A stretch of DNA of 64,000 nt from Ornithinimicrobium sp. F0845 (lineage in GTDB: Bacteria; Actinomycetota; Actinomycetes; Actinomycetales; Dermatophilaceae), in NCBI RefSeq assembly GCF_023015765.1, contig NZ_JALKAL010000002.1, positions 159,778 to 223,777 on the forward strand, read 5' to 3'. Below the pieces are notes generated by a model, which saw only the letters and a program-made list of their open reading frames with translations, ran no database searches and was not told the origin of the DNA. Below, piece by piece: positions 31,513 to 41,499 of the stretch. How positions within the stretch are numbered: position 1 is the first letter of the stretch; the number at the start of each line of letters is the position of its first letter. Made by a program: the position numbers and the translations under genes.

Positions 31513-32094
31513 ATGGCCCGGGCACTTATCATCGTGGACGTCCAGCTCGACTTCTGTGAGGGCGGCTCGCTGGCCGTCGAGGGTGGCTCAGCCGTGGCCG
31601 CCGGGATCAGTGAACTCGTGGCGAGGCAGGGTCAGCAATATGCCGCGATCGTCGCCACCGCGGACTGGCACGTCGACCCGGGCGACCACTGGTCGGAGGA
31701 GCCGGACTTCGTGAACAGCTGGCCGGTCCACTGCGAGGCCGGGACCGCAGGGGCCGAGTTCCGGCCCGAGCTGGCCGGCGCCCTGGACCACGTGCAGGCC
31801 GTCTTCCGCAAGGGGCAGTATGCCGCGGCATACTCCGGCTTCGAGGGCAGCACCGAGCTGCACGGCGAGCAGGTCACGCTGGCCGACTGGCTGCGGGAGC
31901 GCGACGTCACCGAGGTCGACGTCGTCGGCATCGCCACCGACCACTGCGTGCGCGCGACCGCCCTCGATGCCCAGGCGCACGACCTGGACACCACCGTGCT
32001 GCTGGAGCTGACCGCCGGTGTCGCTCATGGATCGACCGAGTCGGCCATCGAGGAGATGCGAGCCGCCGGCGTCACGGTGCGAGAGACAGTCTGA
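31513..32094 (+). CDS. pncA: Nicotinamidase PncA (193 aa)
   Basis: Hydrolyses nicotinamide to nicotinate. The catalytic triad is Asp9 (IVDVQLDFC), Lys100 (VFRKGQY) and Cys145 (TDHCVRA). The metal site is Asp51, His53 and His59 in DWHVDPGDH. ATG at 31513. Probably an operon with pncB. An 18-base perfect palindrome inside the gene is built from two copies of the AGTATGCCG word (31817-31834). Confidence 0.96.
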   Translation: MARALIIVDVQLDFCEGGSLAVEGGSAVAAGISELVARQGQQYAAIVATADWHVDPGDHWSEEPDFVNSWPVHCEAGTAGAEFRPELAGALDHVQAVFRKGQYAAAYSGFEGSTELHGEQVTLADWLRERDVTEVDVVGIATDHCVRATALDAQAHDLDTTVLLELTAGVAHGSTESAIEEMRAAGVTVRETV

Positions 32095-32251: not shown

Positions 32252-32344
32252 TCAGCTCTCGCGCTTGAAGAGGGCGTAGAACGCGTAGAGGACCACCACC
32301 AGGATCACGATGAAGATGATGGAGTCGATCAGCGTGTTTCCCAT
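32252..32344 (-). CDS. Thirty-residue single-pass membrane peptide
   Basis: From ATG at 32344 the reading frame encodes a short N terminus MGNTLIDS, a continuous hydrophobic helix rich in Ile, Val, Leu (residues 9-25) and a positively charged end LFKRES, then TGA. This is the layout of a tiny inner-membrane protein. An AGGGACG stretch precedes the start. It lies in the otherwise empty 303-base gap between pncA and the RDD gene (32095-32397). The rest of that gap shows only a weak minus-strand open frame at 32110-32250. Confidence 0.6.
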   Translation of the reverse strand: MGNTLIDSIIFIVILVVVLYAFYALFKRES

Positions 32345-32397
32345 GGCGTCCCTGTTCTCTGCGTGCGGTCCGGACCGTCCCCGATCCTAACCGCTGG

Positions 32398-33348
32398 TCA
32401 GGGACGCTTCTTCACCACGTTGGTCTTGGCGATCTTGTCGTTCAGGGACTGCTTGTACTTGTCCCACAACGGCCAGAGACCGTTGAGGATCCCGAACAGA
32501 CCGGCGATAAAAGCCAGGGACTGGAAGCCGGACAGCAGGTTCGGGCCCTGCCAGACCACGGCCCGCACGGCGGCGGTCCCCCAGGAGAGGGGACCGTCCT
32601 GCTCCCGGAGGCGCACCCGCAGTCCCATGGCCAACTTGCCCAGGGTCGCGCTGAGCGTCTTGAGCAGCACTGTCTCGTAGACGAGGCCGAGCACGGCCAG
32701 CATCAGACCGAACTTCAGGAAGTCGCTGGCCAGCTCATCCGGCATGACGGTCGCGCGGCCCGCGGCGGCATCCTCGATGAAATGCATGTAGTTGGACATC
32801 AGGTCAGGCGTCACGAACTGGGCCAGGACCAGCCCGACCACGCCCACCAGGATGCCGTCGATGATCCGGGCCACGAAGCGTCGACCCCACCCGGCGAGCG
32901 GCTGACCGTCCGGCGTCGTCGGCCCGGCCATCGTCCCGGTGTAGCCGCCGCCCGGCATCGGCTGACCCCAGCCGCCCTGCTGCTGTCCGTACGGGTTGGT
33001 CTGCTGGCCCTGTGGCGCGCCGTACTGCCCAGGGGCGCCGTACTGACCCGGCTGCTGGCCCTGCTGGCCGTAGCCTGGCTGCCCCGGCGCGCCGTAGCCC
33101 TGCCCCGGCTGCCCATAGCCCTGGCCCTGCTGTCCGTAACCCTGCTGGCCGTAACCCTGCTGGCCCTGACCAGCATCCCCCGGCGCCCCGCCATACTGCC
33201 CCTGCTGTCCGGCACCGCCCGCCCCGGCCTGGTCCAGCCCCGGCTTCTGCTTCGGGCTGGTGTGCTCGGTCCAGGTCACGCCGTCCCAGTAACGCAGAAG
33301 GTTGGCGTCCTGCGGGTCGTCGTACCAGCCTGCCTCGCGAGTATTCAT
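32398..33348 (-). CDS. DUF2510-RDD membrane protein with a Q/G/Y-rich linker (316 aa)
   Basis: Three parts: an N-terminal DUF2510 motif (AGWYDDPQDANLLRYWDG, then WTEH; residues 6-30), a low-complexity linker (residues about 38-140) of GYGQQ, GQQGQ and QYGAPG repeats, and a C-terminal RDD domain with three to four membrane segments starting at GWGRRFVARIIDGILVGVVG. RDD proteins may be transporters or envelope proteins; substrate unknown. The linker resembles prion-like, phase-separating sequence. ATG at 33348. Confidence 0.88.
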   Translation of the reverse strand: MNTREAGWYDDPQDANLLRYWDGVTWTEHTSPKQKPGLDQAGAGGAGQQGQYGGAPGDAGQGQQGYGQQGYGQQGQGYGQPGQGYGAPGQPGYGQQGQQPGQYGAPGQYGAPQGQQTNPYGQQQGGWGQPMPGGGYTGTMAGPTTPDGQPLAGWGRRFVARIIDGILVGVVGLVLAQFVTPDLMSNYMHFIEDAAAGRATVMPDELASDFLKFGLMLAVLGLVYETVLLKTLSATLGKLAMGLRVRLREQDGPLSWGTAAVRAVVWQGPNLLSGFQSLAFIAGLFGILNGLWPLWDKYKQSLNDKIAKTNVVKKRP

Positions 33349-33412: not shown

Positions 33413-33567
33413 TTCAGCGACCGGCAGCGCAGTCAGCCCCGTGGCCCTGTGGACAACCCCGAGGGTCGGAGGCCGTGACGCGGCCTAGTAGCGGGCCACA
33501 CCCGAGGCGACGCTCAGTCGCACAACGCACGCGACACTGTTGGCGGCCTACGCCGAAAGGGGGCAGC

Positions 33568-34125
33568 ATGGAGGTCATGACCGACCTGATCCAGATGCCG
33601 CACGGCCGGGTGTTCACCGCTGCGGACCTGGAGGCGATGCCCGATGACGGCAACCGCTACGAGATCATCGACGGGGCACTCATCGTGACCCCATCTCCCG
33701 CCGTGCCGCACCAGCGCGTGGTCGGCAACATGTACCTGGCGCTGCGGTCTGCCGTACCGGACGACCTTGAGGTCATGCTCGCCCCGCTCGACGTGACGGT
33801 TAGCGACCTGACCGTCCTGCAGCCTGACCTGCTGGTGGCCACCCGCGAGGCACTCTCCGGCCGGACGATGGTGGGACTGCCCGTGCTCGCGATCGAGGTG
33901 CTCTCCCCCAGCACCCGGCTGATCGACCTCAACCTCAAGAAGGCTGCCTTCGCCGAGGCAGGGGTCGCCCACTACTGGGTCATCGACCCCGAGCACCCGT
34001 CATTGACTGCGTGGTGCCTGAGCGCCGCCGAGTTCACCGAAGTCGGCACGGCGACCGGGACACAGGAGTTCGCGGTCGACGAGCCGTTCCGGGTGCGGGT
34101 CTCCCCTGCCAGCCTGCTGCGGTAG
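33568..34125 (+). CDS. Uma2 family endonuclease-like protein (185 aa)
   Basis: Second intact Uma2 (DUF820) gene, clearly paralogous to the one at 418-981: RYEIIDGALIVTPSP, LQPDLLVATREAL, LAIEVLSPSTRLIDLNLKK and YWVIDPEHPSLTAW align throughout, but DNA identity is much lower than within the 5' tandem pair. ATG at 33568 after a GGGGGCAGC purine stretch. Its C-terminal end faces the helicase gene (convergent, 11 bases apart). Confidence 0.9.
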   Translation: MEVMTDLIQMPHGRVFTAADLEAMPDDGNRYEIIDGALIVTPSPAVPHQRVVGNMYLALRSAVPDDLEVMLAPLDVTVSDLTVLQPDLLVATREALSGRTMVGLPVLAIEVLSPSTRLIDLNLKKAAFAEAGVAHYWVIDPEHPSLTAWCLSAAEFTEVGTATGTQEFAVDEPFRVRVSPASLLR

Positions 34126-41133: not shown

Positions 41134-41499
41134 TGGTGGAGGTGGCGGGAATCGAACCCGCGTCCGCTGCCGGAAGACCAGGACTTCTCCGGGTGCAGTG
41201 CGCTGTGGAGTTTCTCGGCCCCAGGGCTCGCGCGCACACGTTCCCTGACAGGCCCAGTTGAGTAGAAGTCCCACGTGATCCCCCAACATGATCACGCAGC
41301 AAGTTTCCTAGCTGATGCCAGGCACTGAGGCGGAAACTAACTCAGGCTGACAGACTTCGGGCTCGCTCAGGCGGCGAGGGCGAAGTCGGTGCGCTTGGAA
41401 TCGGCACCTATTGGTTTGCAAGGGACATTAACGAGTTGACCTTGCGTTCTCGACCCGCTTCTCCTGGAGTTGCGTACAACGTCGAAACCGATCACCCCC
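41134..41499 (-). ncRNA. ssrA: Transfer-messenger RNA (tmRNA)
   Basis: One-piece tmRNA for ribosome rescue. The tRNA-like ends pair as GGGGGTG (5', from 41499) with CACCTCC, followed by an encoded ACCA ending at 41134; the T-arm reads GGTTCGATTCC. The tag frame runs from GCC at 41405 to TGA at 41367-41369 and encodes ADSKRTDFALAA. The 5' side includes GGTTTCGACG, typical of tmRNA. smpB, its protein partner, lies 800 bases upstream on the same strand. Confidence 0.96.

Follow-up and report, generated by a model that had tools for sequence, protein, structure and literature searches.

A tiny open frame lies in the 303 bases that separate the stop codon of a pncA-like gene from that of a gene for an RDD-domain membrane protein in Ornithinimicrobium sp. 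F0845. Is this frame a gene, and what might its product do? We addressed these questions in a stretch of 64,000 nucleotides of that genome, here called the window. The genes concerned are as follows.

31513..32094, plus strand: pncA-like gene for an isochorismatase-family protein (nicotinamidase), convergent with smORF and its constant neighbour in all seven genomes that carry smORF

32252..32344, minus strand: smORF, encoding a predicted 30-residue single-pass membrane protein, MGNTLIDSIIFIVILVVVLYAFYALFKRES; distinguished by orthologues, purifying selection and conservation from the Shine–Dalgarno sequence to the stop codon

32398..33348, minus strand: gene for a DUF2510 and RDD-domain membrane protein of 316 residues (PF06271, 1.3e-23; PF10708, 1.3e-12)

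smORF reads from an ATG at 32344 to a TGA ending at 32252, a total of 30 codons. It starts 53 bases downstream of the RDD stop codon, on the same strand as the RDD gene, and is tail to tail with pncA, with 157 bases between the two stop codons in the window. A preliminary description of this locus had reported a tiny frame with a single hydrophobic helix in a 303-base gap, and we confirmed both the frame and the gap, the latter measured between the pncA and RDD stop codons. Its placement of the frame upstream of a neighbouring gene was transcriptionally wrong, as smORF lies downstream of the RDD gene and converges on pncA. The mean Kyte–Doolittle hydropathy over 19 residues is 2.88 for the window peptide, and no other of the 185 ORFs of 25–50 amino acids in the whole window reaches a mean of 2.0. 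AlphaFold2 modelled the peptide as one helix spanning residues 2–29 (mean pLDDT 90), a result that, for a hydrophobic peptide of 30 residues, tells little beyond ‘helix’.

A protein search of 58 relatives recovered smORF in seven genomes, namely the window's own and 6 of the 30 others of the genus (G006, G008, G010, G015, G019 and G023), in each case as a single stop-free copy. Protein identity among these orthologues is 69–90%, and an alignment of the seven peptides contains 15 invariant columns. An Asp and a Ser near the N terminus, together with F-Y-A-L-F and R-x-S at the C terminus, are conserved in all seven. The 19-residue hydropathy means of the seven peptides (2.39–2.88) are those of a membrane-spanning hydrophobic helix. 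Neither interruption of the frame in relatives nor loss of the helix, the two outcomes that the preliminary description had named as counting against it, was observed: all seven orthologues are uninterrupted and carry the same helix. With fewer than 50 codons and conservation of the coding type, smORF can be placed with the small single-pass membrane proteins (<50 amino acids) as a predicted member.

Differences among the orthologues were distributed unevenly over the codon, with pairwise counts of 105, 51 and 161 at positions 1, 2 and 3. The comparison of synonymous substitutions that had been proposed earlier revealed that changes are skewed towards synonymous ones. All 21 pairs gave a dN/dS ratio below 1 (range 0.14–0.73), and each had fewer amino acid changes than the average for matched random substitutions. 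This matched-substitution test reached P < 0.05 in 10 pairs, including all 6 that involve the window, and missed it in the other 11; the 21 pairs share history and hence are not independent. Mean pS was 0.32 for smORF and 0.39 for pncA in the same genomes, a similar synonymous divergence that is consistent with vertical inheritance of smORF beside pncA, and pN of smORF (0.136) was somewhat above that of pncA (0.100). We also found that conservation starts at the ribosome-binding site and stops at the stop codon: mean identity was 83% within the frame and 68% over the 16 bases that precede it, as against 27% over the 44 bases further upstream and 36% over the 60 that follow the stop codon.

These patterns bear on whether smORF is a chance open frame or a non-coding conserved element. 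Frames of this length are common, as the 185 ORFs of 25–50 amino acids attest, smORF occurs in only seven genomes, and two of the five alternative frames across these bases are likewise open, the +3 frame in all seven genomes and a reverse frame in six. However, the remaining three frames contain stop codons in 6, 7 and 7 of the seven genomes, and the reported frame is favoured over the other open ones because its third positions vary most; its second positions vary least (161 versus 51). On the codon-position pattern, the dN/dS ratios and the bounding of conservation by the Shine–Dalgarno sequence and the stop codon, we rejected a chance ORF, and we consider either form of this explanation extremely unlikely. 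The comparative evidence indicates that smORF is a genuine small gene, under purifying selection, whose predicted product is a single hydrophobic helix.

To what extent is smORF distributed beyond these genomes? A profile of the seven peptides, run against 186 genomes of the family, returned the same seven carriers at E values of 6.5e-21 to 2.4e-19, and weaker matches in 26 further genomes (E 0.034–0.91) in frames of 140–988 amino acids and one of 24. By profile search, no relative was recognisable in the 24 other genomes of the genus (of 31), some of which are incomplete (G005, 84%; G009, 74%), or outside the seven carriers in the 186 family genomes and a 396-genome sample of the order. Six matches in the order sample (E 0.0068–0.044) all fell within open frames of 134–709 amino acids. 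Four weak matches were inspected, one in G476 (L120, in a 134-residue frame) and three in the family (L064, L065 and L076; E 0.034, 0.065 and 0.46), and none resembled an orthologue; that in L076 is a 24-residue frame without the conserved N terminus. When the DNA of the genus was searched with a consensus, the same seven carriers were again returned (E 2.3e-26 or better), with short matches up to E 10 in all 31 genomes. The next-best match (G016; 22 bases, E 1.7e-4) is on a contig other than that of pncA and was taken as chance. Scanning 84,980 species with two peptide patterns yielded 46 stretches and three confirmed loci, all in already known carriers, a scan of limited reach that missed the other four carriers. 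No smORF match was found in plasmids and phages. In 23 non-carrier genomes pncA was found; on its 3′ side we saw no small membrane ORF resembling smORF, and matches there in three genomes (G027, G022 and G009) look like the tails of longer genes, which by sequence are RDD genes in two.

In a tree of the 31 genomes based on PncA and RDD sequences and rooted by midpoint, the seven carriers fall on one side of one branch (support 100/98). The distribution fits a single event at the base of one Ornithinimicrobium clade, in which smORF was gained or became recognisable. Loss of similarity beyond recognition elsewhere in the genus would fit as an alternative to a single gain, and de novo birth and divergence are not separable on these sequences.

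Gene order around smORF is constant on one side. smORF is tail to tail with pncA in all seven carriers, with 3–21 bases between the stop codons in five and 156–157 in two; the pncA product in the window matches the NCBIfam nicotinamidase model at 3.1e-32, with 112.1 of the required 174 bits. Upstream, the RDD gene is directly adjacent in only three of the seven carriers (the window, G006 and G015, where its stop codon and the ATG are 53, 59 and 29 bases apart), and we therefore rejected a fixed operon with the RDD gene. The place is taken in G019, G023 and G010 by divergent genes of 304–343 amino acids that have no Pfam match and are alike by eye, and in G008 by a same-strand hmgA-like gene (Pfam HgmA_C, 27.6 bits against a cut-off of 21; NCBIfam hmgA, 47.6 of 510.75 bits) with a fumarylacetoacetase gene beyond it. 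The stretch between pncA/smORF and the RDD gene appears to be a site of gene turnover.

We made several further observations on these surroundings. The loci noted at the spot of turnover are L043:7391-8689 (minus strand), L043:9738-10961 (plus strand), L041:6143-7057, L040:483-1514 and L039:7186-8193, and G008 carries further genes too between pncA/smORF and the RDD gene. The RDD protein contains a repetitive linker rich in Gly, Gln and Tyr (YGQQGQ type; window positions 33000-33180), the length of which varies among relatives. A putative endonuclease of the Uma2 family (33556-34125, with a start codon of our choosing) is encoded in the window, flanked by the RDD gene and a ResIII/DEAD helicase gene; it was also matched in the G010 and G015 stretches and was not matched in the G006, G019 and G008 stretches. 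The window also contains a tmRNA gene (41134-41499, minus strand; Rfam) with the tag ADSKRTDFALAA.

The preliminary description had suggested that the frame is an independent unit, which turns on two elements that precede it.

32349..32353, minus strand: Shine–Dalgarno-like AGGGA, 4 bases before the ATG; relatives have CAGGA at the same place

32384..32389, minus strand: −10-like box TAGGAT of a putative smORF promoter, with no −35 consensus recognised

Five columns of the Shine–Dalgarno region, ACAGG, are invariant in all seven genomes. The sequence TAGNNT, which we take to be a plausible actinobacterial −10 element, occurs 36–52 bases before the ATG in five of the seven carriers. This was reached in none of 5,000 shuffles, for a pattern picked after the sequences had been viewed; the looser TANNNT gave P = 0.001. 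We saw no TAGNNT box in G006 and G015, both of which have the RDD gene directly upstream, and scanning the window with a strict sigma-70 consensus gave neither a promoter, on either strand, nor a terminator. smORF is thus likely to have its own promoter in five carriers, as judged from the putative −10 box. Co-transcription with the RDD gene is possible in G006 and G015, which lack a −10-like box and in which the ATG follows the RDD stop codon by 59 and 29 bases, and is also possible in the window (53 bases). Independence of the unit is therefore supported by the change of upstream gene between genomes and by a −10-like box in five of seven, and falls short of being shown. When the folding of the 5′ region was predicted, without a control, the Shine–Dalgarno sequence came out as mostly paired in five of the seven genomes (mean unpaired value <0.3; 0.17–0.52 over all seven).

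What could the product of such a gene do? Where the action of so small a membrane protein is understood, it is often to bind a larger membrane protein, and by analogy we lean towards an accessory subunit or regulator that would dock on a larger membrane protein and would have its own promoter in most genomes. smORF would be translated, in most genomes from a transcript that starts at its own promoter just upstream, and its product would insert in the cytoplasmic membrane with the N terminus outside and the C terminus, which bears Lys and Arg, inside, the latter following from the positive-inside rule. The helix and the conserved ends, M-x-T-L-x-D-S and F-Y-A-L-F-x-R-x-S, may then dock onto the larger protein in a manner that we liken to that of AcrZ or KdpF. 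Two conserved ends would fit demands of binding or topology at both membrane faces. A helix that docks might be conserved along a single face, and the test for such a face gave no significant result (P = 0.29–0.35). Neither flanking gene is a clear partner candidate, because the RDD gene is adjacent in only three of seven carriers and PncA matches only a soluble-enzyme family. Furthermore, smORF is restricted to 7 of the 31 members of the genus, a distribution that speaks against its product being a core accessory of some universal complex.

The same observations bear on other roles. If the product were an accessory to the RDD/DUF2510 protein, the same strand and the 53-base gap in the window would be expected, as would the adjacency in G006 and G015. 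However, the RDD gene is ~1–6 kb away in G019, G010 and G008 and on another contig in G023, and it is present in all 31 genomes of the genus as against seven for smORF, which makes this partnership quite improbable. The main rival to the accessory reading is a membrane-acting, toxin-like peptide of the type I toxin–antitoxin or TimP kind that is silenced by antisense RNA, with the convergent pncA transcript as the natural antisense. Mobile or multi-copy occurrence is common, though not universal, in type I toxin–antitoxin peptides, whereas smORF has one copy in each of its seven genomes, at a fixed locus beside pncA and under purifying selection, and without plasmid or phage matches. No antitoxin RNA was identified, nor did the consensus scan of the window give a promoter on either strand. 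In favour of a toxin are the size, the single hydrophobic helix and the positive C terminus; the mostly paired Shine–Dalgarno sequence in five of seven uncontrolled folds, which suits translational control; and the precedent of TimP, described in PMC7667032 as a small membrane protein that is toxic and that an sRNA represses. The pncA stop codon is also only 3–21 bases from that of smORF in five genomes, and an overlap of 3′ ends is plausible given this close convergence and the lack of any terminator-like site found between pncA and smORF in the window. Taking both sides together, we consider a toxin-like role unlikely.

We also considered a small respiratory oxidase subunit of the CoxIIa type and a FeoB-associated peptide. 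Six of the seven members matched FeoB_associated (PF12669), at E 0.0068 at best, and one matched CoxIIa (PF08113) at E 0.043. By contrast, the window peptide reaches no cut-off in Pfam and NCBIfam, its best matches being FeoB_associated (17.1 bits against a cut-off of 27) and SA1362 (14.8 bits against 42). Members of PF12669 are Cys-rich, and none of the seven peptides contains Cys; none of the 31 genomes of the genus passes the curated cut-off for CoxIIa; and COX1 is present in all 31, and hence follows no pattern of co-occurrence with smORF. Oxidase subunit IIa was rejected when the family and COX1 searches gave no support, and we regard either assignment as very unlikely. A further and highly speculative idea is that smORF encodes a recent, perhaps de novo, membrane microprotein under selection that would be silenced by nicotinamidase read-through overlapping it from the pncA 3′ end. 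If so, overlap with an NAD-salvage transcript would control a membrane regulator in one actinobacterial clade.

The interest of smORF lies in that a gene of 30 codons can be supported by comparison alone and yet falls below every curated cut-off in the family libraries searched. Its fixed position, single appearance on the tree and non-carrier relatives make it a tractable case for studying the origin of tiny membrane proteins and the way in which they acquire partners. In other respects it is unremarkable among small membrane proteins.

Searches of PADLOC, and of the PDB by profile up to E 10, gave no match to the peptide, and no paper in the library of open papers searched joins ‘Ornithinimicrobium’ with ‘small protein’. 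In PHROGs the best match was PHROG 12079, a phage family of unknown function (E 0.0036 for the window peptide; five of seven members match). The likeness is over the hydrophobic helix, with only residues 8–29 aligning, to the end of a 79-position profile, and a hydrophobic-helix match of such strength is no evidence of kinship.

Among known systems, smORF shares a single helix with CoxIIa, to which one of seven members is weakly matched, and differs in that no genome of the genus is above the CoxIIa cut-off and in having no pattern of co-occurrence with an oxidase. TimP and the type I toxins are likewise small, hydrophobic and probably located in the membrane, and the transcript of the convergent neighbour of smORF could be antisense; smORF departs from them in its single copy and fixed locus and in having no identified antitoxin RNA, a comparison that for TimP was made by description. 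AcrZ, MgtS and KdpF are small single-pass regulators or subunits of transporters. The binding of AcrZ to AcrB is described in PMC7267776. In contrast to all three, smORF is not beside a recognised transporter gene and is limited to one clade of one genus among the genomes searched. It resembles them in size range, in its one helix and in its predicted membrane location, and the accessory role is drawn by analogy with them. smORF represents a new family, restricted to its lineage, of a well-known kind, the predicted small membrane proteins.
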